Part shown: in pieces, positions 320 to 60,491 of the stretch
Layout: each line of letters starts with the position of its first letter
Position numbering within the stretch: position 1 is the first letter of the stretch
Origin: Tribonema minus
Taxonomy: Eukaryota > Sar > Xanthophyceae > Tribonematales > Tribonemataceae
NCBI GenBank assembly: GCA_017506865.1
Contig: JAFCMP010000531.1
Location: 310,001-374,000, forward strand
Direction of reading: 5' to 3'
DNA length: 64,000 nt
Program-made: the position numbers and the translations under genes
Notes under the pieces: generated by a model
Told to the model about the DNA's origin: nothing
What the model saw: the letters and a program-made list of their open reading frames with translations, nothing else
The model's database searches: none

Positions 320-2663
320 GAATGGTGCTGGAGCAGCGGTACCAGAGCAGTGACGAAGGGGGGTGCTGCCGGGCGGGGTTGTAGCCACCAATCCGAGGTT
401 CAAATACACCCATGGAAAAAAGCAGCCACTGGTTAAGGACTTGCGTCAGTGCTTGTTGTTGCTGAGTTGGGAATGGTAAGCTGCAGTGCCCATGTATATG
501 CACAGATGTGTGTCTCAGCATTTGCTGTGAAGCGGTGCTCTACATGATGGTGGATGCTCAGCAAAGCGGCGCATCTGACCACTGCATTGCACATCTCACG
601 CTGGCTGCCGAGTGCTGCTTCGTTGAGCCAAACTGACACACGAGTCAGCAAGCAGTGACTGAGTGAAAGTGTGGCCCCTGCATTCTAGCTGCTGCCTGCT
701 CCGGCGGAAGGGAGCATGGAGCCAACTACCATTGAGTTGAGCGCGTGTTTGTATGGCGCTCAGGGCGAAATTCGCTGCTGCTGCGGCCACGGCTGCCGAG
801 CACTGCCGCTGGGTGCTGACGTGAACGACCACAGATAAGTGCCCATGAACGACCACAGATAAGTGCCCATCATGTGTCCATGCTGGCAAACATATCAAGA
901 GCATGCTTTGGCGTGTGCAGTAAGGGCCATGGTATGGCCATGACATGGTACCAGCGCATGTGACTGCACTTCCTTGATGAGCCCAGCAACTTCAAGTGTT
1001 GCGCAACAACTTCAATTCAAGCACTTCTGATCGTTCACCAAATACTCAGCAGTTGAGAACAACTGGACTAGTGTCACAGCGGCATACTCAGTTCTGTAAG
1101 GTCATCGTTCCTCTCTGAATGTAATGTTCAATATACATGTGAGTATGCATGTCAAAAGATTTGAGGTCTCTGAGCAGGTATACTCGCTGTATGCGTTTCG
1201 TGCACGTGACATAGTTATGGTGTGCCAATTTTCATACAATCAGAGACCAGAGTCATCGCAATACGCGCCTTCACATGTATGTGGCAGCAGCTGCAACCGC
1301 AAATCATGTCGGCTTGCAAGCAGTCACCTGCTCCCCTGCTCAACGCTCAGCAGTTGCTGACATCATTTGATGCCGTCAAGGGAGTTGCGATTGCGTTCGA
1401 CAGCAATACCGCGGCAGCATGTTGGTGTGTTTCCGCGCCGCATGGCAGCAGCAGTCCATCACATGAGACACATATATATGGCCAGGTCGTATGTGGGCAC
1501 TGTGGCCTTGCTGAGCGCTGCGCACTTCAAGGCTGCAACTTAAACTATGTTTGACTACATCCGGTAGTACATCGACACGATCATCATCATGCCACATGGA
1601 ATCAGACGTGTGGCTGGAGGTAAGCTTTTTTCTCACCTTCCTTCAATGCTGGTGCATGAATGCATGCTGACAACTGTCAGCGCGCGCTGTCATCTGGGCT
1701 TGCGCAGGGCAGGCAACAGGTTTATCGGCACTTGAGTTTTGTTCATGGAATGCCAGCATGTTTCATCGCCTGCGGCATACATGTGTCCTTGCTGCTATGG
1801 CCAGTGCGCAGACATTCATACTTCTACTTCGTTTGCCCATCCATTTCTGTAGATCCTAGTGCAGAACTTGGATGCAGTCAGCCTGCCAGCATTCTACGTA
1901 GGCCCCCAAATTTTAAAGGCCATCTCAAGCAGCTGCTGGGGAAGTATGAGTTGGCATTGCATCTCAATGCTGTGCTGCACACTACAGGGGCTGCTGCCGA
2001 CGCAAAACACAAAGGGGACAGAAGCGTGGGGCAGCCATATTGTTACTGTCTGATGCGTTTGCTGCTGCCGGCTCGTAGCCATGTAGTGTTATTGTGATGG
2101 AAAGCAGGCAAGCAGAACAATCCCATACAACCACGGATGTCAACAAAGCGCAAAGGGCCAGTAGGGCATCACCAACGTGCCCCCCCGTGCTCATTTACCC
2201 CTCATGGGGTGCAGTCAAAAAGCGGTCGCCACCCAACAAACTTGCCCACTGAATCACACTTCAAGCCATCTTGGCATTGCGCAACGCCACTGCTGCTACT
2301 TCGGCTGCGGTCAAGACACGATCACGCACGTGTGCAACCACTGTACAGGAGAGGCCACCAGTGTGGTAACGGCTGCACAACGTACTGATAGTGTACCGAT
2401 AGTGTACTGGTCAATGACGCTTTTCGCTTCAAGCAGCGCTTGGGGGGCAGTGCTGAGGGCGGCAAAACTGAACACACGCTGATCGACGATTGGGGTCGAT
2501 GGCCACTCAATGAAAAATGTGCACCGCAGCAGCGGCGGCGTGCGTCGACACTGCTGCTGCTGCTGCTGCTGTGCCACCCGTTTCGCTCAACTGGGTACTA
2601 GCTGGACCCCTATATGCGGGCGCCATGGGCAATCGTGGCGCTGTGTGCACGCGCCAGTGCCTG
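320..2663. other. Region without recognised gene
   Basis: No open frame here resembles a known protein and none has convincing splice sites. It holds a perfect 2 x 24 bp tandem repeat (823-846 and 847-870) and a (CTG)7 run at 2551-2571. It lies beyond the stop codon of the minus-strand ascorbate peroxidase gene, so its right end is probably that gene's 3' UTR. Confidence 0.5.
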
Positions 2664-5600
2664 TCACTGGATTGGGCACTCCAAGCACCAGTCGACTTGG
2701 TCAATGTCGATCCCGCCGGCAGGCTCAAATTTGGAGCCAAGCTCTGACAGCTTCTTGTGCGCCATGGCATAGTCACGGAAGAAGTCCGTCGCACTCTCTC
2801 TGTACTCATTGGCGTGCACCTTCAATCGTTCATCGGCGAACAGGGCTCTGTCGGTGTCGAGCTTGAGAAGGTCGTCGTCGTCGCCGGTGACGTCTTGGAA
2901 GTAGGAGTTGTCAAACTGCAACGGCGGCGGCGCGTTCGGCAGCATTTGCACCTGTCAGCTAGGGCGCGTACTCGCAAGAAGGGTACTTGGAGCGGCGTTA
3001 GGTGTGCCACCGCTATTCCTTACTCCCTGTACCAGGTTGCAGGGGCTGTCAGGCCTCATGTGATGGTAAGATAGCAGGTAGAAGTACTTTGTTGAAAACG
3101 GCGTTATGACAGGGTATGGGGTAATTATGGGGTGATATGGCGGAAGTGCTGCAGATGCATGTATGCACAAGTGCTGCAGGGCGCATGCCGTTTCAAGCGT
3201 CAACACCTTCGCATACCCTGCATCCACACTACAGTCATGTGTTGCTGTGCAATATGCACAGCGCCTGCGAGTGTGCGCTCTCCCTCTCAATGAGTCAGTC
3301 ACGGTGAGAAAATCGTTTTCAAGTGAACCATCACCACGCATTCACGTCCCCTGTCTGTAACGACCAAATCTACATTTCGCCAACGTCGACTGTGTCCGCT
3401 GCCTGTGTCCGCATCATTGCGAACACAACACACAAAGGTGATATTGCGCATGTAAAGGTGATATTGCGCATGTGCAAGCTATTGTCATGCTTGAGGTTGC
3501 TGAGTGCGAGAGTGAAAACAATGCCTTGCGCGATGGAGTACTGATATGCGCATCTCACTTTGAGCCATTGCTTGGTCCAGCTCTGGCCACCTATCCTGCC
3601 ACTCCCTGGCTTGCCGTCTGGCCGCACTATGCTGGTTCCATCCTGTACAAGCAACACCGACAGCGCCAGACTCGTTGTCATTGGCGGCATTCGTGAATGG
3701 ATCACCACATCACAGCAACGTGTTGAGTACGGCTGAGCGTTACGAGAGCTGTTGCTCACTACCCTGTTGCACCACACCAGCAGAGGCAGACATCAAGGTA
3801 ACCAATGCAACAGAAGACCGACGCCAGTCGTGTGCTGCTAGAAGTGGATGTATTGTAGTCTGTCTAGTAGTACGTACCTAGGGCTAACCCTAACCCTAGT
3901 AATGAGCATGTAACTGCCATATGCTCCAAAGTTACGTTACGTGGGTGCTTCGGACAGTGTTGGCTTAACATCGCAACGCAACAAGTCAAAGCTATAGCAA
4001 GAGGAACAGCGGTGCAGCGCTGGTAGCGCATAATGCAAAAGGTCAGCAGAAGACACGGTATGCACTGCTGTCAAAGACATCTGCAGCATTCTGGCTAAAA
4101 AACAATGCGCAACTGCCGAACGAGTCAACTGTTGAGTCGTTGCTGGTGAGGGATGCAGGCCATGCTCTGGCGGCGACGCAAGCCGTGCTGCGCTACACCG
4201 TTGGACTCACAGTGTACATGGATGAACTCACCGTGTACTTGGTGCTGTCCTTGCCCAGGCCGGATCGCTCAGGGTTTGCGCGTCCAAGTGTGTGGGCACC
4301 ACTCAGCGCGACAATTTCCTGATCATTGAAGCCCATCCTGCATGGCAGTTACAGGGCAGTTACAGGGTGTGAAACCGCTCTGACCCCAGGAAACTACCAT
4401 GAGTGGAGGCGTCTGCTTCAGTGTGTTTATTTGCGAGGCGAGCAAGAGCCAGGACGTACATGTAGGCTGTGTTTTTGTGAGCGCATGTCATCACATTGAA
4501 GAGGTAAGGTTGGCGCCGCCGCATTCGCAAGTGAAACAGTGTCTGATGTGGACTTTGCGCATGACGCACGATTGCATGGCGAGCGAGCCTGCCAAATATC
4601 AAAAACATATTCCGAGGCGCAGCGCCACGTAACAGTTTTTATGCCGTCAACATTGTTCCATGCATGTATGTCATCGCTGTGCGCATGGCACATGTTGTCA
4701 ATTACTACGCTACTACTCAAAATATGCACGCATGTATTCATGCATGTGCATGGCACAATGAGGTCAAGAGGCGGCCACAATGCCCTGTAGCCCCGCAGAC
4801 TGTAGGAGTTTAGCCACTTGATGCCCACCCTGTTGTGTAGTACTTCTTGTCAACACTATGTGTGCTCGTGGCTGTAAAGCAGAAGTGGAGCAAACCTCTG
4901 ATGCGTCCAACAGCGATGCATCCTGTCGCACCCCTGCAGGACTAGGAAGCGACTGCGCAGGCTTGGGGTTGCGTAAGGTACATCTATTGGAATGTTGGAC
5001 CTAAATACGTATGTGAATACTTGCCTCGAACGCTGTTCTGGTTCTCTGCATGTGCCATCACGCTCTGGGTGTGACAGTCGTCGTTTTCATACTGCTGCGC
5101 AAGAATCAAGTGATCTCTACGCCTAACCCTAACCCTAACCCTGGTCCTCGCCCTACCCAACCCCAGCCCTAATGTTGTCCTTCCCCACGGGGCTCTGCCT
5201 GCAACATCATGCTCTAGGGATGAAACCTGAAGTTTCTCATCTCCCAGCGCAAAACATGTCATCCAGGGTGCGTTGAATTGTACTACGCGTCATGCAACAC
5301 TCTAATCGTACGTTTACTTGCGAGGCACAACAACGCTCACCGTTCGAACACCGCTCGCAAGTGCTCGGCCGCGCTGGCAGCGTTGTTCGGCCATGGCTTT
5401 GCGCCAGCTGGAAGGTTTCCCTGCAGTGTTGAGAGCGCGCAAAAAAGCAGTCAGGCAAAGTGGGGTGTGCAGTTGCAGCGGTCAGCTGTGATGTTGAAGT
5501 CATATGTTCATTGTTAAAGTTTGTTCATCGCGGATGCTGTGGCGCCAGGCGTTCTTCATCATCACGTGACCGCGATGATGTCTCACAGGTCACATGATGT

Positions 5601-8122
5601 CATTGCGACCACACTTTGATAACATGTGTTGGATTCAGGGCATGGGAATGTTTTAAATGGCATTGCCACTGCTGCCGATCCACGATGCACACGTGGGAAG
5701 TCACGGTGCTGAAGTCAGAGTATTGAAGTGCACTGGCACGATCTCATGCAAAGCTCTTGTTCCTTCAACGCTATCATCACCTTCTCGCCATTAGTGGTGC
5801 GGTGCAAAGCGCATACCCCGTCATCATCGTGGCAGTTGATGTGCAAGCAACATGCACAAAGACTGAGGGAAGCGCAAGTGCACATTGCGCTTCTTTGGTG
5901 TCAAGAGCGAGAAGCGGGCGTTGCAATGCAAACAAGCAGGAACAGTACAACACTTGCACCATTTTCATCGCTGCGAACTATCAAACCTGGACGCACACTC
6001 GTGTGTATGATTGCTACGCTTGAACCGTAGAGGGTTATGTAGGTAGCAGATGCGCTGACATGACGCAGCTCGCACCTCGGCTATCAAGCCAGGCCACAGG
6101 AACTTCGTGTATACGCACAGCTTTACATAAGCAATACAACAAACTACCAGAAGCCGTCCACTCTTATTTTTGTTCAACAACAACAACAGGTGACAGTAGT
6201 GGAGAGATGAGGGTTGAATAATGCAACTTAGGAGTAGGGTTAGGGTTTTGGGGTTAGGGTTACATAGTCTGCTTTCAGGGGCGACAGGGAAAGAAATATT
6301 GAAATACAACCCCCTGCCCCTTCTCTGGATCTGCCAATTCAATTCATGCGAATACAGCTGTGTCTAAAGTAGAGGGTTCATACATAGATGTCGGCAAGTT
6401 GACAATGCTAACCCTACTAGTAACAGTGACCTAATGTTAGCCCTACGCGTAAGCCTCACTCTAAGTTTGCCTGGTACATGCTGGTGGTGCAGACCACGAA
6501 CGATTCATAGCGTAGCAACAGCAACCTCGATGCTGTCCTGCTGTGCTGAAGGGTGACATTGAAGGCCATCATGCTCGAGTCACGAGTCTCAATCACAAGT
6601 CAAGTGTGTCGGCAGGTGTGTGAGAGCAGGCCAGTCAAAGCTCAAGCTACTCAACACACTGCTCTGATGGATGTCTTCCTGTGAGTTAATGCAAGGCCGA
6701 GGGGTAGTTGCGATTCGCATTGCCGCGGACACACATCTGTACTGCATCAACGGGAGCCACAAAGTATGCTCGTAAAAATCTTTTGATGACCACAACAGCT
6801 TGTGCCACTCATGCAGGCAAGATCTTCACCTGTTGATGTCTGCAACAGCTCGCACCACCCATGAAGGCAAGTGACATGATGACATGAAGTCCAGTACTGA
6901 GCTACTTCTTGTGTTGAAGTACTAGTATGGACTATGTTGACAGCACCTTCACTTTCCTCAAGAAGCTCTGAAGTACCACTATATTCAAGCTCTGCAACAC
7001 CAAACCTGATCACGGCTGCATCATCGATCCCGCCAATATGGGAATCATCAGCAGGGGCATGAACTTCAACATTGGATTGTGAACTTCAACAGTGGTTTGC
7101 GTGCGCACTCACCTCGGGTGCGCATTCCGCAGCGCTGCTCACATCTTTCCTGCCATATCTCATGTCAATCTTTGGCCCTCCAGCTTGCTCTATGGCCGTG
7201 GCGCTAGCCATTTGAATCAGATCCGCCCAGGATATGCTTGGGTGTTTGTCCTGCAGTGTACAGCATGCGAGTAGTGAGTGACTCGCAAGTGACTTGCAAG
7301 TGACATGCAAGTGACTCTGACGCACAGCGAAGTAGAGGGGAGGATGCGGCAGAGGGTACACTGTCGCTGTCAAGTAGCGACATTCGCAACGTCAATAACA
7401 AGTTCAACCCGCAGCCGTTGCAGGTGTGGAACTTCAAGTCCATGATCCAACGTAGCCTTGCCGCATGACTCAACCGCACAGTGTGTATGTAAGCACAATG
7501 CGCTGAAAGAGGGGCGAAAACCACCTCGCCCTCGCCCTAATTCCCATCACTACCCCTGACCCTGGCCCTGATGTCAAGGCCTAACCTTGAGTGGCTTGAG
7601 CAGCTCCAGACCATGGACAAGGCCGCTGTTGGCCTTATGATCCAGCTCCAGAACTCTCCATTGCCCTAACCCAATCATAACCCTTTACTACATACGATCG
7701 CTAGCCGTCATCTCAACTGTTACTGCAGCCCTAGGCCAGCCAGTTACCTGGCCTTAAGGGGCTTGAGTAGTTCCAGGCCATGGACCAGGCCACTATTGGC
7801 CTTGTGGTTGATCTCCAGAATTCTCCACTACCCTGCCCCAACCATGACTCCCTCCTAGATCTGAACCCTAGCCCCAACTTCAACCATTACTCCAGCCCTA
7901 GTCTCTAACCTTGAGGGGCTTGAGCAGCTCCAGACCATGTACCAGGCCGCTGTTGGCCTTGTGGTTGATCTCCGGGACAAAGCGGATGGATCCATTTGCG
8001 CCTCCACATTTGGGCCACTCCTCGATCCTGATGCTCTTATCGTACGTGCCTGAGTCGTGCCACGCTAGGCGCACAAGCAGCGGCGCGCTGTTGGTCTTGT
8101 CGAGCAGAGTCTTAATTTCCTC
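2664..8122 (-). CDS. APX: Ascorbate peroxidase (class I haem peroxidase), exons
   Basis: Reduces H2O2 with ascorbate; organelle or cytosol cannot be decided because the N-terminus was not found. Five exons were read on the minus strand with matching phases. 7910-8122 encodes the distal-haem segment [17 protein letters not shown] plus [10 protein letters not shown]. 7113-7250 encodes [20 protein letters not shown]. 4232-4337 encodes the proximal segment [19 protein letters not shown] with the haem-ligand His. 3559-3642 encodes [11 protein letters not shown]. 2664-2915 encodes FDNSYFQD through [16 protein letters not shown] and ends in TGA. The exon that should carry the conserved LPDA...HLRxVF segment, between 7113 and 4338, was not located, nor were exons upstream of 8122. 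The C-terminus runs about 25 residues past the usual KLSELG end. Family identity is very secure; completeness is not. Confidence 0.9.
3433..3473. repeat. Tandem 20-bp repeat in APX intron region
   Basis: Two copies of AAAGGTGATATTGCGCATGT lie head to tail, next to the last but one APX exon. No function can be inferred. Confidence 0.7.
3881..3899. repeat. Interstitial telomere-like motif
   Basis: Two adjacent CCCTAA-type units inside an APX intron. Further units occur at 5122-5142 (three units) and 6235-6262 (TTAGGG orientation). They match a TTAGGG-type telomere repeat rather than TTTAGGG or TTTTAGGG. Confidence 0.7.
5122..5142. repeat. Interstitial (CCCTAA)3 motif
   Basis: Three perfect hexamers followed by degenerate CCCTA-rich sequence up to about 5172, within the long APX intron. 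This is the longest perfect run of the telomere-like motif that I found in the window. Confidence 0.75.
7567..7840 (-). repeat. Two decayed tandem copies of an APX exon 3' end
   Basis: The 3' end and donor region of the APX exon at 7910-8122 (about 7905-7975) recurs twice in the intron downstream, near 7735-7835 and 7567-7665, with a period of about 165 bp. All copies keep the plus-strand string GGCTTGAG followed by CAGGCC or AAGGCC, then GTTGGCCTT or ATTGGCCTT. The copies carry substitutions and diverge beyond about 80 bp into the exon. They look like non-coding leftovers of partial exon duplication. Confidence 0.8.
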
Positions 8123-45000: not shown

Positions 45001-48000
45001 CCATATACTTCACGTACTTGAAGTTTCATATTTGTGGCACTCAAAGCACTTGGTTAAGCTGCTGCTGAACCTTTCAAACTCGTATGTCTCACCTTACCCA
45101 TGCCAACTATATATATGTGTGTGTGTGTATATTTGCTGCAGGCAACCCGTGACTTCGCCCTGTGGCTCAAGGAGTACAATGATGCCCTCACGGCTCCCCA
45201 GGAGGGGCTGCCCCCGCTGCCCGTGGCGCTTCTCGGGCTTGACATCTACTCGCTCTTCACGTCCGCTGATGAGGTACAACTTTGAAGTATTCATGTTGAA
45301 GTTCACCATACATGTAATGATCTGGAGTGTGATGAAAACGTAAGAGCGCTTGCTTTGTCGAGCTGGGGGAGTATGGCTCACTGGGTACACGCCATGTGCA
45401 GTGACGCGCACACTGATGTTCAGCTGTGCCAGTGCTTTGGTGGTTCAGTGCAGTGGGTTGCGCGCCAATACATGCCTATTCATTCATGTCTGTTTCGTAC
45501 CTGGTTGTCAGCCTGATGCAGCCGTAATGTCAACGATATCACCGGGTCTGACTGCCGGGGCTTGCGCGGGTCGTAGAAATTAATTAAGGTACCCAGTGTG
45601 CACGCTCATGCCCTCAACCGCCGCTTTGCAGGGTGCAGCTGAAGTTGGCAGCAGCTCTCGACTGCAGTTTGCAGTTAAAATGGGCAGCAAGAGGCAGCAT
45701 TACGGGCCAATATCTGCACTCGTCACTAGAGCAGCGCAATGTGCTCCTCGTCTTTTAGCCCTGCAGCGTCAACAGCTGTATACGTACTTCTACTATACAT
45801 ATCCATATCCCCGCGTCGTGCATGTGGCTCGGCGCGCACCTCAACAGTGTACGCGAGTGACGGCACGTCGTCCATGCCGTCGCACGCACCACACACACGA
45901 AACAGCATCATTTCAGTATGTGGTCACTCAAACATCGCTATCACGCTGGCACGCGTTTTCATATGTCGCATTGCCCCCGCTGCGCACACACAGGAAGCCG
46001 GCCTGGACGATTTGGATGCCGCTGCCGCCAAACAGGCGCGCTGCCCATGGTAACGACACAAGCGTAACTGCCGCACTCGCGATCATGCCTAACCGCCGCC
46101 GCTGCTGCTATGCGCACGCGTACTGCCGCTGCTAGCCCATCTGCAACTGCCCCATCTGTTTCTGCCGCACCGGCACGCACCGCGCTGGCGCCGCATGCGC
46201 AGGTGATTGCGTACCTCGACAACATCGACCCTGCCCGCCATCGAGCCGGTGCCTCTTAGGATTGGAGTTAGGGTTCGGGTTAGAGTTAGCACCGCGCACT
46301 TGGTAACAGCCGCATTTGCAACTGGCGCATTTGTAAGTGCCACACTGGCGCCCTCGTCAACTTGTCACTTCGCGCACAGCCTACCTCGATGGCGTCGCCT
46401 CCCCCGCCACCGAGCTGACGCGCAAACCTCACTTGAACTGCCGCGTTTGTAACTGTCGCATCTGTAGCTGCCGCTGACATCCTCGCGAACTTATCTTTTG
46501 CGCACAGGTTATAGCCTACTTCGACGGCGTCGACCCCGCTGCCGCCAACCTGGCGCGCCACCGCATTTGTAACTGCCGCGTCTGTAATTGTCACACTGAC
46601 ACCCTCGTTAACTTATCACTTTGCACGCAGGTGACAGCATACCTGGACGGCGTCGACCCCGCCGCCGCCACGCTGGCGCGTCAGCGCACTTGTCAACTGC
46701 CGCGTTCGTAACTGCTGCGTTTTGTAACTGCCACATCTGTAACAGCCGCACTCACACCCTCTTCACGCGCAGGTGATCGCCTACCTGGACGGCGTCGACC
46801 CCGCTGCCGCCAAGCTGGCACGTCACCGCTACGGCCTGCTCGGCAGTTTCAGACCCGAGGTCTCTGAGTACGCGCACGCTGTGCGGTCGGGGTTCATCAA
46901 GAGCCAAGCGGAGCGCGTCGCGGCGGTGGTGAGGGATCTCGAGAGGCACGAGAAGGAGTATTCTGAGGCGGGCGGCAACAGCGACGAGTACTTCAACGCC
47001 ACGGAGAACGCGCGCATCGTGCAGGAGGCGGAGCAGTACTACATCATGAGCTTCATGGGGGGCACCGTCACCTGGTGAGCAAGTCATGCATGAGTATGAG
47101 TATGAGTATGGAAATGAGTACGATTACATTGTGCAGGAGGCAGGAGGCGGAGCAGTGTTGCGTCGTGAGCTTCATGGGCGGCACCGTCACCTGGTGAGCG
47201 AGTCGTGTATGAGTACAAGTATGAGTATGAGTATCAGTATGATGACATTGTGCAGGAGTGCGTGTACATGGTGCAGGAGGTGGAAAAGTGCTGCGTCTCC
47301 AAAGTCAAGCTTCATGGGCGCCAACGCCACCTGGTGAGAAAGCAGGTGAATGTATCTATGTATGTATGTGTGGGTGTGGGGGCATTGTGCAGGAGGTCGA
47401 GCAATGCTGCTTCTTGCAATTCATGGGCGGTGCGGTCACCTGGTTAGAGTGCATGCAAATGGCGTTTGTGTCTATGCATGCGTGAGAACAAGTAGGTACA
47501 CATGTGTGTACCTGTGAGAGCAGACAATGGGTGCATGTGCGCTGTTGCTGACAAAGTGCAAGTGTACGCCTTGTAGCAGCATCTCGCTTCTCCCTACCAA
47601 TAGGGAGGGCGGCAGGGGCTGGCGGAGGGAAGCAGGGTACACTCTACTTTGACCATACTCCTAACACTAACCCTAATGGAAACGAATCAAAAGATCGTAG
47701 AGCTCTAGGTGAGAAGGTGTGGTTAGCCGTCAAAATGAATGCCTTGCACCTGGTACCGCCGTTTAAGCAATGATGATGCGGTGATGATGCTCATCACAAA
47801 CCTGCGCGGCAAGGGGATATTCCTGACCCTAGCCCTAATTGTGCCGTTTACGCAACGATGATGTGGTGCTGATGAACAGGAATCTTCGCGATAAAGCGAT
47901 GACGGACATGATACAGCACGAGCTGGAGTTCCAGGACAAGAAGCGGGGCAAGGCCGGCACCGTGCGCGTGATCATCTGGGCTCACAACTGTAAGTTTAAG

Positions 48001-51000
48001 CATGAACAACAAATGGTTCTTCAGAGCTATGCCTACATGTCCATAGTCCTTGTGGCACACACACACCACACCCCGCCACTCCGTGACAAACTTGACGAAA
48101 TTGGCTGAAATTCGGTGAATATTGTATGCAGCTGAATACTGCAACAACATCGCCAATCAATTGTCAAGTCATTTTGTGAGTCGTGAAGTCCCGTGCTCAC
48201 ATCGGGTATGCTGATATCCTGGTACCTGTGAGCCGCCTACACCAGCAATTGTGAAGGTCCAAGGCTGATTCCCTTGTGACACCGTGCGTATGCAGCCCGC
48301 CTGCAATACGCGTGCGCCACGAATCGTGAAGGTCCACGGCTGATTCTCTGCGACACGATCCGTATGCAGCTCACCTGTGAGACACCTACGCCACGAGGTG
48401 TGCTGATTCGCTGTGATACCGTAGGTATGCGGCCCACCTGTGGGACGCCTACGCCACAAACCCGTGATGGTCCCATGGCTTATCCCCTGCAGTATTGTAC
48501 GTATGCCTATGTCACAAATGTTGAAAGTCCACGGCTGATTCCCTGTGATACTCTATGTATGCAGCCCACCTGTGAGACGCATACGCCACAAATGGTCAAG
48601 CTCCATGCCTTACGTCGGGTCCGCTGATTTCCTGTGACAAATTATGTATGCAGCCCACCTGTGAGATGCCCATACCACTAATTGTGAAGGTTTACGGCTG
48701 ATTGTCTGTGATACCGTATGTATGCAGCCCACCTGGGAGACGCGTACGCCACAGAGCACGCGGAGCATCGGCAGCACAACGTGGGTGCACTTGTGCGCGG
48801 CATCTATGGCAAGGAGGGCACCTTCCTCATTGGACAGTCCACGCATCACGGCTCAGTCAGGGCGGCGCGCCGCTGGAGCGGCAGGTGAGCAGCAGCGCTC
48901 AGCGTTCAGAAAGTTCCAGTAATTCCTGCACTACGTTAGAATAGAACCGTCTAGGCCAGATAACATGTGTCGTCATGGCTCAACAAATCGTGAGAGATTG
49001 CTGCGAGCAGCAGCAGCAGCAGCAGCAGTGCTCAGTCTTCGCTAATGAAAGTGCGCATTGTTGTCATTGAGCGACTGCTCGGCGTGATGGATGCGCAGCG
49101 TTGCGCGGCGTGCCAGGTGAGAGATGCATTGCAGAAGGACAGGTGCACCGCATTGCTCAGCGTATTCTGTGAGGAGCAGCAACGCTCACCACTGTTGAGA
49201 GAAGAGGGAATTCTCAAAAATGGGCTGTTTCATCAGACGCGCCCGAGATAGCGCATTGACGGACATTACTTGTAGCACGGCTACAAAGCTCCGCATTATG
49301 GGTGCAAACACCCATATTGGCATGGCCAGGAGGGTGCGCTGCTGGCGTGGTCGTTGAGTAGCATTGCTCATCACGGCCACAGCGAAAGGCATCATGCACC
49401 AGTGCGTGCGAATCAGCAGCATTGCTCAGCGTGATCATGATCAACAGCATTACTCAGCATGACACATGATCGCCATCGCTCAGTACATGCATCGACGACC
49501 TGTGATTTGGTGCTTGTAAAAGGTACGACACATCAGCTTGGTGTGACACAGACGCGGTCCTATCAACCCTAGCGTGCCCGCCATGCGGTGCTTTTGCTGG
49601 CATATGCGGTGATGCTGATTGAGATGTGTGTGGATCTCCTTCGGTGTACCCGTCACCGATTGCCACATCGCCTGCAGCGGTGCTAGCAACACTTACTGTA
49701 GAAATGGCATATGCCGCCTGCAAGCAATACACACCTGCCCATCCTGCGCTCACACTCTCCCCCCCCCCCCTCCCTCCCTCCCCCCCCCCCCCTTCTTTGC
49801 GGAACTTCAACTGCAGGGACACGGCCATGGATCTGAACCCCTCGCTGCCCGACAGCTCTGGTGACCTCCTGCACCAGGTGGCACTCGCGCGCAAGCAGAA
49901 CGACTTTGGCCTCATCTTCCGGTCCAACAACCCTGGGCACCCCGCCGCCGGCACCAGCGCCGATGCCGACAGGTAGGGAAGCGATGGATCATTGAACCAT
50001 GTGAAGTGGTATGAGATAGTGTGAAAAAGCAGATCTTGCGAGCGTTTCAAAGTATTGACTTTGTGGAAACAACAGTGGGGTTTGTTTGTGCTATGCGGTC
50101 AGGATAGGCAGTCGGCAGCCCCAAAGCCATGCACAAGCTTCAAACCTTGCGAATCACAGCATTGACTTGTAAGAAACGGTTGATTCTATGCCATCACACA
50201 GTCAGGATAGGCAACAGCCCCAACACCAATGCAGAAACTTTCAGCGCTGTCTCGTCGCTGTATCGCATCAGACGCACTGGGCACGGTAGTGCTGACGTTG
50301 GGTACGGCAGGCAATCGCATTGGAGGAAACAGACATGCAGGCACTGCCATTTGTGTGTACTCCAATTCAGGTCAGAGTGAACGTATTTGGTGAGCCCAGA
50401 GGAACACTGCGAGCAACCCATGGCGCAGCGCACTCGTCATTTGCATGTTTAGGTTTGACTTGTAGTATAGGGATGGGTTTAGGACGTGTAGGGCCTGGCT
50501 CAGCCATAAAATCCGCGTCGTTTGCAGTCAATAGCCGGCAGGTTAACGCTGTTACTTCCTTTTTGTTGCCCAACACCGCTCTGCCGCACCAACCTGCCCC
50601 CCTCCCTCCGTTGCCGCATCGCATGGCGACGGCAATGCATACACCAGTGCTGCACTGCTCTTCAGCATTAGATCCTTACGTACTCTTGCTTGCATGCATG
50701 CATGCATCATTCTCACACAAAACTGGCAATGGAGAGACCCCCCCCCCCCCGCCCCCCCATTGTGTTTACACATTCTGGAGGAGTCTAAGCACACAACCCC
50801 TCTTTGCCACCGCCGCTGCAGGGCGGCGGCGATGGCGGAGGCCACGGCAGTGCTCCGCGAGGAGCGCCTCCAGCGCTTTGTCGGCGTGAGCTACGTCAAG
50901 GCCACGGAGCGCCTCAGCCACTACAGCCACTGCCGCATGGGGGACCAGTACGACGCCGTGATTCACATGGACGAGACGCAGGCTCTCAAGCCCCTCATGC

Positions 51001-54615: not shown

Positions 54616-54742
54616 GCTGTATGTGTGGTCCTGGCGATCAGCTCGGACATGAACTTCACCTTGGGAAGTTTGACCAAAGTTTTTGAAAAAATCGCGCATG
54701 TCCCGTTGCAGGCCAGGCCGCTAGCGTAGCCGGAAGGCGCAG
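54616..54742. promoter_or_regulatory. Probable bidirectional promoter, ATP12 / ankyrin gene copy 1
   Basis: 127 bp between divergent start codons. Part of it (from about 54645) is included in the segmental duplication, so copy 2 of the ankyrin gene carries a version of this promoter without ATP12. Confidence 0.4.
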
Positions 54743-56762
54743 ATGCCTTGCGACGCTAACGCTCAGACCTTGGCCTCGGCTTTCACAGCATGGCTTCTGT
54801 GCGTGCAAGCGGCAGCTAGTGATCCCGAGAAGCAGTCGCTCGCGGGTATTGAGGGACACATTGAGGTCAAGTGGCGGGTTGACGGGCGCTGCCTGATCAT
54901 CAGGAACATAGTGGCTGATGCTGGTTGGGACAGAAATGCAGTGCTGCTGCAAATCTGCCAGGAAACACTGGCTCTGCCCACTGTGGGTGCGGTAATGCTG
55001 GAAGCCAGGCGGCCCTGCAAGAGCTGCTATCGGCGCAGGACGTATGGGAGAGGGAGGGGACAAACAGCCTGGTGCTTTGTGAAACCGCGATGGCAGGTAC
55101 GTTGCATCTATTGCCGCATGTCCATATGTCATGTTTCGGCTTTTCCAACGCTACAGCTTGATGATACGCAACTCACCACCATATTGCTCCCTGGTCTGTG
55201 CCTCAACCATGCCCTTTCTGCCATTTTTGTGATAAGGCGGCGCTCGTCCTACGGGTGACTGCAAACGACAGAAGCTGGAGGCAGCTGAGCCTCTGTGCTG
55301 CGATACACTACACCATGCGGCGTGCGAGGGGCACACATCATGCATCCATCAGCACCTTAAGCACGATGCTTACGCCAAGCTGACGGCCGTCAACAAGAAC
55401 GGTGACACAGCGCTGATTGTGGCTGCAGAACGCTGCCGTGCGGATTCCATCCACATGCTTCTCCAGCAGCATGCGCACATTCAGGTCATGGCGACCTCCC
55501 CCAATGGGAAACACACGGCACTCATGTGGGCAGCATCGAAGGGTGACATAGCTTGCATCCGCCTGCTTCTTGAGCAGAATGCCGACGTGCAGCTGGTGGC
55601 CAGCGACAGCAGCGGCACCATTGCACTCATGTACGCCACAGGCAACGGCCACGTATCTTGTGCCCGCCTGCTTCTGCTGCAGCATGCCAGTGTGCAGCTC
55701 ACGGCGGTTGACAGTGATGGCCAAACAGCACTTGTTCACGCTTTGTCTGATGGCCATGTTGAGTGCGTTCAAATGCTTCTCCAGCAGGATAGCGATGCCC
55801 AGCTCACAGTCCCTGACAACTTTGGCAGAACAGCCCTCATGTGCGCCGCAAGTTGTGGCCGTGCCAGCTGCATGAGACTGCTCCCTGCAGCAGGGAGCAC
55901 AGGTCCTGGCGAGCGACGAGCGCGGCATGACGCCCCTCATGCACGCCTCAATCAATGGTCGTGTCAACTGCATCCGGATACTTTTTGAGCAGCTTGCTGA
56001 GGCTCAGGTGATGGCCGGTGACAACCACGGCTCAACGCCACTCATGTACGCCTCATTACTTGGCCACGCCGACTGTGTCCGTGTGCTTCTCCAGCAGCAC
56101 TCTGATGCTCAGCTAGCAGCCGCTGGTAGGTTTCGCAGGACACCACTCATGTGGGCGGCCCTTAAAGGTCATGCTGAGTGCGTCCGTCAGCTTCTCCAGC
56201 AACGTGCCGAAGCTCAGCTGGCCGCCGTAGACGCGCAAGGCTTTACCGCACTTCGGTGTGCTGCGCGTAAAGGCTTCACGCAGATTGTGGGGGTTGCTGT
56301 GTGCAGGCGCGGATCCGTTTACTGTAGTGACCAAGGCTGAGAAACAGGTGGTGAGGGCAGCAGTGACAGACCTGTGCCAGGCAGCCACTGCGCCGCACAA
56401 AATGCAAAGTGTCGTGGTGGAACTCGCAGAGCTGATGTCGCGCCGCGGCACCTCGTGACTCAAACATGATACACAGCATTGCCGACCCTGTATAGTATTA
56501 CTTAAGCTGGCTCTTATGGCTGCTGTGCATCAATCATTGCCACGCGACTGTCAAGCATGCTTCCTTGCGTAATTGGCATACTCGTGGCAGATTCATTCAC
56601 ATGTATGCTTGAGTCGCGTCAGTCCCTTGTTGGTATGGCATGTTCATGATGAACCCTTTAGTCTCGTCGAAGCTTGTTGTGTATGGTGCAGGTAAGCGCT
56701 GAACGCTGATGACGGCACATATCGTCATGTCCTCCACAACTTGCCGGCCGCTGCACGCATGT
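54645..56762 (+). repeat. Segmental duplication, copy 1
   Basis: About 2.1 kb that recurs at 58286-60491 in the same orientation, 3.65 kb away. It includes the ankyrin gene, its intron and about 300 bp of 3' flank (TTCATTCACATGTATGCTTG in both). The left breakpoint lies inside the ATP12 5' flank. Confidence 0.8.
54743..56458 (+). pseudogene. Ankyrin-repeat gene copy 1, frameshifted
   Basis: Matches the intact copy at 58429-60177 over its whole length but with at least three frame breaks: a 10-nt deletion in exon 1 at about 55006, a 1-nt insertion at about 55881-55885 (CTCCCTGCAG against CTTCTGCAG) and a 2-nt deletion at about 56291. After the first break the spliced reading would end at TGA shortly into exon 2. 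The splice sites (GCAG then GTACGT; GGCAG acceptor) survive. Long ankyrin fragments remain open between the breaks (55419-55880 and 55927-56290). It could still be transcribed, since it keeps the promoter side shared with ATP12. Confidence 0.8.
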
Positions 56763-57240
56763 GGTGCAAGTACAGGCAGGTGGCGGCTTCGCCTGCTTGG
56801 TGGCCTACGCCGACGCAGCGACCGAGTGTCAAGCCTGCTGCCTGCTGCGCCAAGATCATCAACGCGAACACTAACACCTGCGACCACACCGTCGAAGACC
56901 GGAGCCTATCCGCCGCCGTCCCTGCCGCCGGCGATGGCGCACGCCTTCAACCCACAACCGACACAAGGACACTATCTTGGGGCCTCGCGGCACCCTTGAT
57001 TGTTAGTCATACAACTCTGCGGAGTGTTGTCCAAGGCATGTGGTTAGAGAGCGGCGCCTGTGCGCGGCGACGGGGCAGGCGGCGGCAGCTGCTTGGCGGG
57101 AGCGGCGCGGAGGAGCAGGAGCAGGAGCAGCAGGAGGAAGGAGTTCGCAGCAGGGGTTCCAGTGTGCGGCCGGGACACCGGGGGGGGTAACACTAGCAAA
57201 TAGAAGGGCGGGTTTTAGTAGATATGCTTGCTGGAGTGAC

Positions 57241-57640
57241 AGCATCAGCCTTTGCAGCACCAGTGCCTGGCACTTAGTGATCCATGACCATTGTCCTCAG
57301 TTCTGGGCGCTGCTACCAGTAGCCCAGGCCTGCACAAAGCTGTTCACGGTTAGGACCATTTTGGCAGAGACACGGGAGGCCTCAAAGTGGGTCTGGTCGT
57401 GTAGAGGCAGTAGCTTAGGCACTTTGGTGCAGCATGATAGTGGGGACCGATCGGGGTTTGGGTGGGGTTTGTTGGGGTTGGGTTGGACTCTTCGTAGCAA
57501 CAGCATTGATACCCTTAGCACCAGTGCCTGGTGCCCAGTGATTATTTTGCCTAGAGGCGTGATTCAGACGTGTCAGCATGGTCCTCAGTTCTGGGCGCTG
57601 TCAAAGGCGACCCAGGCCTGCATAAATCTTTTTCGAGACG
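57241..57640. repeat. Degenerate direct repeat, 261-bp period
   Basis: Two units beginning AGCATC or AGCATT and sharing AGCACCAGTGCCTGG, GTCCTCAGTTCTGGGCGCTG and CCCAGGCCTGCA. Divergence is considerable. No coding content recognised. Confidence 0.65.
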
Positions 57641-57785
57641 GGACAAGTGTGCCTCACGGCTGGGCAACCCTAAGTAGGGTTTGGTTGTGGGGTGTTGGTG
57701 GTAGTGTGAAGAGGGGGAAGCCTGTTTGCGGTTGAGTCTCTCTTCGGAGAAGGAATGTTGCATTGAGTGCACATCCAAAGAGAGG

Positions 57786-57959
57786 GCTTTTCGCGCCCCT
57801 TGCGAAGCGAAATTAATAAAGTACATGGCGGCGGCGGCGTTTGAGTGGTTGTCGTTGCGACACTTTCAGACTGTCGTACGACATGTAGATTCCTTACAGC
57901 TAGATGCCAATCATCTGGGCTTTTTCGCGCCCTGAGCGAGAATTAATAAAAAGTACATG
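57786..57959. repeat. Pair of 40-bp repeats with AATTAATAAA
   Basis: GGCTTTTTCGCGCCC-type sequence, then GCGA or GCGAG, then AATTAATAAA and GTACATG, occurs twice about 134 bp apart. The AATAAA core could serve as a polyadenylation-like signal, but this class of alga normally uses TGTAA. Confidence 0.6.
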
Positions 57960-58285
57960 TTGTGCAGTCATGTGTGTGCACCATGGTGTTGACTGCTCAC
58001 TGGCTTTGTCCTCCTGCTCTACGACCGCATAATTGTACGCAGTTTGTGAATGTTGCACCTGTTATCCGCCCATCAAGACCTGTTACAGCCTGCCACATGT
58101 CGAATGAGGATCGGTTTCAGCAATGGCCATGGCATATCATGTACCATGGTGTCAGGCTTGCTTTCGAATGATCTGTATGTGGTCATTGAGCCAGCAGTCA
58201 AGTAAATCCGGGCATATGTGGTGCAGCACTGGTGCTGGCGCTCAAGCTATGCTGTGAGTGGAATCATGATCACGCACGGGGCTCA

Positions 58286-60491
58286 CCTTTTGCAGACATG
58301 AACCTCCCCTTGAGGTTTCAGAAATGAACCTCACCTTTGAAGTTGCCGTAGAACCTCACCTTTGAAGTTGCCATCTGTTGAACGGTAAACCAGGCCTGGC
58401 GCAGGCCAGCCTGGAGGCGCAGGCGCAGATGCCTGGCGACGCTAACGCTCAGACCTTGGCCTCGGCTATCACAGCATGGCTTCTGTGCGTGCAAGTGGCA
58501 GCTAGTGACACCGAGAAGCAGTCGCTCGCGGGGATTGAGGGACACATTGAGGTCAAGTGGCGGGTTGACGGGCGCTGCCTCATCATCAGAAACATAGTGA
58601 CTGATGCTGATTGGGAAAGAACTGCAGTGCTGCTGCAAATCTGCCAGGAAACACTGTCTCTGCCCACTGTGGGTGCCGTAATGCTGGAAGCCATCGAGGA
58701 TGAGGCGGCCCTGCAAGAGCTGCTGTCGGTGCAGGACGGATGGGAGAGGGAGGGGGCGAACAGCCTGGTGCTACGTGAAACCGCAATGGCAGGTATGTTG
58801 CATCTATTGCCGCATGTCCATTTGTAACAATTCAGCTATTACGAGGCTGCTGCTTGATGACATGCTGTGGGCATGACCCACCACCGCACATGGTCAAGAA
58901 CTTGCCCCCTGGTCTGTGCCTCAACCATGCCCTTTTTGCCACTCTTGTGATAAGGCGGCGCTCGTCCTACGCGTGACTGCAAACGACAGAAGCTGGAGGC
59001 AGCTGAGCCTCTGTGCTGCGATACACAACACCATGCGGCGCGCGAGGGGCACACATCATACATCCACCAGTACCTTCAGCACGATGCTTACGCCAAGGTG
59101 ACAGCCGTCAACGACAACAGCAGAACGGCACTCATGGTCGCTGCAGCACACTGCCGTGCGGATTCCATCCACATGCTTCTCCAGCAGCATGCGCACGCTC
59201 AGGTCATGGCGACCTCCTCCGATGGGAACTGCACGGCGCTAATGGGGGCAGCATCAAAGGGTGACATTGCTTGCACCCGCCTGCTTCTTGAGCACGATGC
59301 TGAGGGGCAGCTTGTGGCCAGCGACAGCAGCGGCACCACCGCCCTCATGCTTGCCACAGACCGCGGCCACGTCGCTTGCGCCCGGCTCCTTCTGCAGCAG
59401 CATGGCGGCATGCAGCTCACAGCGGGTGATAGTGATGGCCAAACAGCGCTTATGCACGCTGTATATGATGGCCACGTTGGGTGTGTCCAAATGCTTCTCC
59501 AGCAGGATGTCAAAGCCCAGCTCACAGTCCGCGACAACTTGGGCAGAACGGCCCTCATGTTTGCTGCAGGTCGTGGCCGTGCCAGCTGCATGAGACTGCT
59601 TCTGCAGCAGGGAGCACAGGTCTTGGTGAGCGATGAACGCGGCATGACGTCACTTATGTACGCTTCAATCAATGGTCATTACGACTGCACTATGATGCTT
59701 CTTCAACAGCATGCTGAAGCTCAGCTGATTGTCGGCAACCACCACGGCAGAACGCCACTCATGTGCGCCTTAAAATCCGGCCGCATCGACTGCATCCGTG
59801 TGCTTCTCCAGCAGCACGCTGATGCTCAGCTCGCAGCGAGGGATAGGTTTGAAAGGACACCGCTCATGCGTGTGGCACTTAAAGGCCATGCTGAGTGCGT
59901 CCGTCAGCTTCTCCAGCATCGTGCGGAAGCTCAGCTCACCGCTGTAGCCGCAGACGGCTCGACGGCACTTGGGTGTGCTGCACGTAAAGGCTTCACGCAG
60001 TGTGTGGGGATTATGCTGTGTGCAGGCGCGGACCCATATGCTGTAGTGACTGAGGGTGAGAAGCGTGTAGTGAGGGCAGCGGTGGCAGACCTGTGCCAGG
60101 AAGCCACTGCGCCACACAAACTGCAATGTGTCGTGGTGAAACTTGCAGAGTTGATGTCGCGCCGCGGCACCTCGTGACTCAAAACATGATACACAGCATT
60201 GCCGACACTGTATACCTATGCTGCTTCTTATGGCTGCTGTGCACTACAGTAACCATTGTCAACTACTCCCATGTGCCTGTCAAGCATGCTTCAAGTTGCT
60301 TACGCATTTGAACCACTTGTAACAGGTTCATTCACATGTATGCTTGAGTCGCATCAGTCCCTTTTGGCATGGCATGTTCATAATGAACCCTTTTGTCTCG
60401 TCAAAGCTTGTGTGTATGGTGCAGGTAAGAGCTGAATGCTGATGACGGCAAATATCGCCATGTCCTCCACAACTTGCTCGCCGCTGCATGC
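58286..60491 (+). repeat. Segmental duplication, copy 2
   Basis: Second copy of 54645-56762. Its left edge holds a short local tandem array of GAACCTCACCTTTGAAGTTGCC (two copies near 58323-58372) not present in copy 1. Confidence 0.8.
58429..60177 (+). CDS. Ankyrin-repeat protein (intact copy)
   Basis: Two exons join in phase: 58429-58792 and 59003-60177, giving 512 residues. The donor is GCAG followed by GTATGT; the acceptor GGAGGCAG was chosen because only it keeps the frame. Residues 1-122 form an N-terminal domain I do not recognise (GIEGHIEVKWRVDGRCLIIR). From about residue 125 some ten or eleven ankyrin repeats follow, with consensus GRTALMxAAxxGHxxCxRLL then LQQHAxAQL, ending RRGTS and TGA. 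Ankyrin repeats mediate protein binding; no catalytic domain is present. A TGTAA motif at 60318-60322, 141 nt after the stop, may be the polyadenylation signal. A frameshifted copy lies upstream. Confidence 0.85.

Follow-up and report, generated by a model that had tools for sequence, protein, structure and literature searches.

The 64 kb window (the whole stretch of DNA analysed here) contains a gene of the erythromycin-esterase family, identified by a PF05139 match, in which exon 46773-47074 is accompanied on both sides by partial copies of its own edges. We refer to such copies as echoes. The exon boundaries of the gene hold because the joined protein, with the echoes omitted, covers the full PF05139 profile (positions 1-358 of 358 matched in one stretch). 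In the family search for paralogues with which to compare it, this esterase gene alone was matched. The features on the acceptor side of the exon are the following.

45142 to 45273, forward strand: upstream esterase coding exon, ...GLDIYSLFTSADE (gene model with open frame; PF05139 over the joined protein)
45274 to 46772, forward strand: intron housing the five acceptor-side echoes (gene model)
45997 to 46040, forward strand: echo 5, the outermost, exon head (score 22; CA at the aligned place, AG not intact)
46194 to 46240, forward strand: echo 4, acceptor and exon head with a 2-nt deletion (score 27; AG intact)
46379 to 46422, forward strand: echo 3, exon head (score 24; CG at the aligned place, acceptor dinucleotide not intact)
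46501 to 46564, forward strand: echo 2, acceptor and exon head (score 48; AG intact)
46619 to 46687, forward strand: echo 1, the nearest, acceptor and exon head (score 49; AG intact)
46773 to 47074, forward strand: true exon, both edges echoed (gene model; PF05139 match across the exon)

Exon 46773-47074 starts with VIAYLDGVDPAAAKLARHRYG, and an earlier note on this DNA had described five copies of this acceptor and exon head in the preceding intron. Local alignment of the query 46760-46838 against its own intron recovered five copies of the edge (the acceptor and up to ~57 nt of exon) with scores of 22-49, compared with a maximum of 18 among 1000 first-order Markov introns. Measured from the true boundary, those of the echoes lie 142, 265, 400, 570 and 782 nt upstream. 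Head-to-exon identity is 0.88, 0.88, 0.71, 0.76 and 0.62 from the nearest echo to the farthest; the graded similarity reported earlier is thus real as a trend, but rough. Three of the five echoes keep AG at the aligned boundary, in agreement with the suggestion that decoy splice sites are left behind. Few derived changes are shared among the echoes of this array.

Echoes that the earlier note did not list accompany the donor end of exon 46773-47074, the acceptor of exon 48728-48884 and exons of other genes. In the window these are the following.

47133 to 47198, forward strand: donor-side echo 1 of exon 46773-47074, consisting of exon end, GTGAG and intron start (85-86% self-match; shift 119)
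about 47258 to 47342, forward strand: donor-side echo 2 of exon 46773-47074 (self-match; shift 259)
47382 to 47447, forward strand: donor-side echo 3 of exon 46773-47074 (76% self-match; shift 368)
48224 to 48727, forward strand: four acceptor-side echoes of exon 48728-48884 (repeat family; shifts 432, 358, 295 and 163), with boundaries near 48296, 48370, 48433 and 48565
48728 to 48884, forward strand: esterase exon with echoed acceptor, ...HLGDAYATEH... (gene model, PF05139 search)
7581 to 7973, reverse strand: array of donor-side echoes belonging to exon 7910-8122 of a different gene (unit 167)

Elsewhere in the window, positions 54725-60177 hold two adjacent ankyrin-repeat-like reading frames (55236.. 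and 58954..) of closely similar sequence, which have the look of a tandem gene duplication.

The wider analysis covered 213 kb of the 158 Mb genome, made up of the 64 kb window, 130 kb from nine contigs, and tRNA-synthetase loci (eight from a family search, merged to five). The gene models are computed predictions of a small self-trained HMM gene finder, which returned 118 confident exons. Joined, the histidyl-tRNA synthetase on contig C100 aligned to residues 3-398 of PDB entry 3hrk with two one-residue gaps and none longer. As both this protein and the esterase are full-length without the echoes, the expected proteins do not include them. An echo was counted at a score of at least 20 with at least 18 exonic nt, the query being limited to 100 nt of exon. 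The echo counts exclude three genes with proteins of repetitive or low-complexity appearance (the ankyrin gene of the window, a zinc-finger gene on C100 and gene 0 of C40), whose removal reduced the counts from 81 hits at 37 edges to 60 hits at 29 edges; the exon-interior control and the boundary profile of local copies were computed before this step. One gene that was kept, gene 5 of C100, which contributes 4 of the 60 echoes at 2 of its 3 edges, may represent an exon and its own echoes called as exons. Also left out of all counts, for its GC content of 72%, was the 20 kb segment C1:50001-70000.

Across this sample, 29 of 185 exon edges had an echo in the adjoining intron, compared with 1.7 expected from shuffled pairings of introns and exons (34/3700); the scan proposed in the earlier note therefore yields the excess of exon-edge matches that it anticipated. 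Without the three most echo-rich genes, echoes remained at 9 of 153 edges (about 1.6 expected; 31/3060 shuffled). A wrong-side control, in which the exon head was sought downstream and the exon end upstream, gave 2/166, and the exon-interior control on the gene set before the drop gave 2/78 at a score of at least 20. In the boundary profile (40-nt queries, score of at least 18, same earlier gene set), local copies were found for 17/106 acceptors and 14/98 donors, and for 1/96 and 1/92 of queries placed 80-120 nt inside the exon. The nearest echo lay 82-226 nt away at 28 of the 29 edges, with a median of 154. The exon portion of the 60 kept echoes ranged from 18 to 92 nt (floor 18, query limited to 100 nt), and 52 of the 60 alignments crossed the boundary and so included intron sequence adjoining the exon edge. 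Both acceptor and donor edges were copied, in several genes. Tandem duplication of segments containing exon edges thus lengthens introns in this sample, as the earlier note had proposed for acceptors; the proposal has to be widened to donor edges and to duplications away from edges, and the growth is uneven across genes.

This unevenness is pronounced. Echoes occurred in 10 of 33 genes and were absent from the other 23, and three genes held 44 of the 60: in the histidyl-tRNA synthetase gene 11 of 12 edges were echoed, in the synthetase gene of L025 4 of 5, and in the esterase gene 5 of 15. Clustering by gene gave a permutation p of 5e-5, which is the floor of the test. Median intron length was 1043 nt with an echo (n=17) and 674 nt without (n=57; p 0.09); among introns without an intervening weak exon, the medians were 758 nt (n=9) and 510 nt (n=42; p 0.03).

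In the flanking intron part, echoes diverged by 0.222; in the exon part, divergence was 0.241 at codon position 3 and 0.113 at positions 1+2. Relative to the intron, these values correspond to ratios of 0.51 for positions 1+2 (bootstrap by edge 0.39-0.66) and 1.09 for position 3 (bootstrap 0.88-1.32). A ratio of 0.51 equals the value expected of a neutral echo beside a constrained exon: divergence at positions 1+2 is halved because the echo alone changes there, whereas both lineages change at position 3 and in the intron. Echoes accordingly decay as dead sequence. When two echoes of one edge were compared, the nearer one matched the exon better 34 times and the farther one 14 times, and the two were equal 4 times (sign test p 0.0055, echoes of one array yielding non-independent pairs). 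Derived changes shared between echoes at positions 1+2 numbered 22, compared with 6.5 expected under independent copying from the exon, which indicates that some arrays grew by echo-from-echo copying too. Repeated copying of the exon, as initially suggested, therefore holds with the amendment that not each echo came fresh from the exon.

We favour, with a probability of roughly three in four, the view that short tandem duplication is a general process whose products survive at exon edges since splicing conceals the added copy. Short tandem duplications would arise across the genome. In the middle of an exon a duplication would disrupt the protein and would rarely be seen; a duplication across an exon-intron boundary would be tolerated, the copy contiguous with the remaining exon being the one used. 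The second copy, made up as observed here of some intron sequence and roughly 20-90 nt of exon edge, would become intron, and the intron would grow by one unit. Renewed duplication, or unequal exchange among the copies, would add more of them, and the echoes would then decay neutrally, as we observed, while selection would keep the exon. Slippage, template switching or unequal exchange may make the copies, the spliceosome may identify the correct site through cross-exon pairing of splice sites, and mis-spliced transcripts would presumably be cleared by nonsense-mediated decay. The clustering by gene counts against this reading, as a uniform process does not predict it.

The distribution of duplications along genes bears on whether exon edges are special. 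In 40-nt windows from 41 introns of 640-3000 nt, a local copy was found for 10 of 41 windows at the acceptor, 9 at the exon head, 8 at -50..-10, 8 at the donor exon end and 7 at -100..-60 on the acceptor side, compared with 12/246 mid-intron and 1/47 exon-interior tests (Fisher p 0.0002 to 0.010 against mid-intron for four raised edge windows); the -100..-60 window (p 0.010) is non-coding intron tail. Windows in the intron on the donor side were not raised (1/41 and 2/41), and intergenic 40-nt windows had a copy in 5/77 cases with both directions searched. By self-BLAST, 27 of 42 clusters spanned an edge, 15.8 (sd 2.8) being expected under random placement (p 0.001); 15 clusters lay wholly within introns and 4 were intergenic. 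With distances limited to 60-400 nt, the median unit was 158 nt at edges (27 clusters), 159 nt in introns (15) and 164 nt in intergenic DNA (4).

One alternative is that exon edges are true hotspots, through transcription- or splicing-linked breaks or exon-bound nucleosomes, so that introns grow from their ends. The excess of edge-spanning clusters, the raised edge windows (10/41 against 12/246 mid-intron) and the echoes at nearly all edges of the histidyl-tRNA synthetase gene speak for such hotspots. Against them, the donor-side intron windows are not raised, and at least 3 of the 27 edge clusters, by reading of their positions, sit in coding repeats (ankyrin, zinc-finger, alanine-proline-rich). 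Part of the edge excess is moreover expected, because an edge pair stays recognisable for longer when one of its copies is under selection (~1.5-fold by a rough arithmetic estimate), although this longer survival may not cover the whole excess. Tandem Repeats Finder (period of at least 60) placed 5 of 14 arrays across an edge, with 3.1 expected (p 0.17), and thus does not support hotspots. Finally, units of similar size at exon edges, within introns and in intergenic DNA favour one general process, and since duplications also occur away from edges that process need not be edge-specific. We therefore consider hotspots unlikely. Similarly doubtful is a stronger proposition, namely that edges in this lineage are active hotspots from which a boundary-linked process repeatedly copies segments of ~160 nt outward, that affected introns consist largely of echoes, and that exon definition selects among sites of equal strength.

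C40 (L022) holds, at positions 2515-3265, a young tandem duplication with a period of 375 bp and 97% matches that comprises a whole predicted exon and its splice sites. It has the appearance of a recent duplication of this type.

Echoes could instead be functional, as alternative exon starts, regulated decoys or ratchet points of recursive splicing. Intact echo acceptors indeed score like true ones (median 4.8 compared with 4.7; intact echo donors 5.0 compared with 6.6 for true donors), three of the five esterase echoes contain AG|GT, and the exons predicted by the gene finder include some echoes. Codon positions 1+2 in the echoes, however, decay at the neutral rate. In the small sample of aligned echoes, AG was retained in 22/26 and GT in 18/26, close to the ~20/26 expected from identity at codon positions 1+2, so that the splice dinucleotides are not clearly better kept than the remaining sequence and show no selective retention of AG|GT as recursive splice sites. 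In addition, all 40 of the 40 intact decoys are predicted to cause a frameshift, a stop or both if used. A function for the echoes is on these grounds quite improbable.

Very improbable is a further possibility, that the introns arose when an exon segment containing a proto-splice site was tandemly duplicated, the echoes being relics of that origin. The mutation class is identical, and cases come from Drosophila, where intron gain by tandem duplication of an AG|GT exon segment follows the Rogers model (PMC2891723), and from other organisms (PMC4974935). Like the echoes, the Rogers mechanism, as outlined in the available part of that report, alters gene structure by local tandem duplication and leaves the protein unchanged; unlike it, where exon sequence turns into a new intron, the process seen here lengthens an existing one (PMC2891723). 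The Rogers model predicts the head of the downstream exon at the intron start and the end of the upstream exon at the intron end, a layout for which 1 of 72 introns exceeded the shuffled maximum in each test. As 52 of the 60 echoes contain intron sequence from beside the exon edge, the intron predates them.

The chance that the copies are a dispersed repeat, a mobile element or assembly errors is negligible: all four matches listed for the query 46700-47074 in the 158 Mb genome lie at the esterase locus (the query itself and three echoes, two of the acceptor and one of the donor), contrary to the dispersed family that the earlier note had named as its refutation, the L025 gene matched itself and otherwise just one 43-nt piece of intron on another contig, and the echoes have accumulated numerous neutrally patterned substitutions, which collapsed or repeated reads would not show. 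In these whole-genome searches, the best candidates alone were scored and common words were skipped. The histidyl-tRNA synthetase search says little about edges, because the best 40 of 201 candidates that were scored were mostly a dispersed repeat of ~170 bp in an intron of that gene (query 669-839). This repeat, at L013:968-1138, has at least 41 matches elsewhere with 80-93% identity; it and the 43-nt match to the L025 intron are the findings that speak for a dispersed element.

Several known systems resemble parts of what we describe. In a potato RNA-dependent RNA polymerase gene, according to the available part of the report, one recent tandem duplication across an intron-exon boundary created a new intron, and the exon copy is retained in the mRNA with the support of RNA-seq reads (PMC4974935). 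The unit is alike, combining the 3' part of an intron with the 5' part of the following exon (PMC4974935), and this unit or its donor equivalent was present in our sample in 60 echoes at 29 edges. In contrast to the potato gene, several decayed copies have here been absorbed into an existing intron, on acceptor and donor sides and in several genes; judged by homology, the two genes that are full-length without echoes contain no potato-type new intron with an added exon piece in the mRNA. In Chlamydomonas and Volvox, tandem repeats with motifs such as GT/AC are enriched near intron-exon junctions (PMC3887541). These repeats likewise concentrate toward intron ends, but the portion of the report at hand describes no tie to adjacent exon sequence, whereas the unit found here includes the exon edge (PMC3887541). 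In mammals, pseudogenic (decaying) exons are disabled exon duplicates (PMC2718932). There, too, duplicated exon sequence decays in place; as far as the accessible text of that work goes, the difference is that here edges of about 20-90 nt and a splice site were copied, often several times (PMC2718932). The 60 kept echoes, with 18-92 nt of exon from queries limited to 100 nt, did not have the form of whole-exon duplicates. Self-BLAST of the histidyl-tRNA synthetase gene, with query length unlimited, gave alignments that mostly ended 40-90 nt into the exon, with the exception of one 61%-identity alignment through a whole exon. The whole-exon duplication on C40, in a gene excluded from the counts, does fit the whole-exon pattern of pseudogenic exons.

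No report of serial exon-edge echoes was recognised from titles and abstract openings, a survey that covers the subscription literature thinly and is weak evidence of absence. There is some precedent all the same, since a boundary-spanning tandem duplication has been published for the potato gene (PMC4974935). The kind of mutation is already known; what is striking is its repetition at nearly each exon edge in some genes.

Intron lengthening without mobile elements is, to our knowledge, poorly documented, and in this genome intron growth can be read unit by unit. The echoes also carry an internal clock in the comparison of codon positions 1+2 with the intron. Because decoys of normal strength sit in the intron and all intact ones are predicted to be harmful if used, the arrays amount to a natural experiment in splice-site choice.

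Two further observations concern other loci. At C246:700950-701488, a second kinesin match (profile positions 268-311) follows an exon that covers positions 191-311, as a donor-side echo would. The 72% GC segment C1:50001-70000 (L008, L009) is gene-dense and intron-poor, and its composition is unlike that of the other sample DNA; a reading as contaminant DNA was rejected, given that light-harvesting matches lie elsewhere on C1. The light-harvesting-protein family has 92 matches in the genome, suggesting a photosynthetic organism, presumably an alga. Pherophorin domains (PF12499), a further marker tried for placing the organism, had no match here, nor in any control genome. The light-harvesting matches on C1 and C79 are near-identical in layout and scores, perhaps as two haplotypes or a segmental duplication. 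If so, the pair could reveal copy-number differences in echo arrays.
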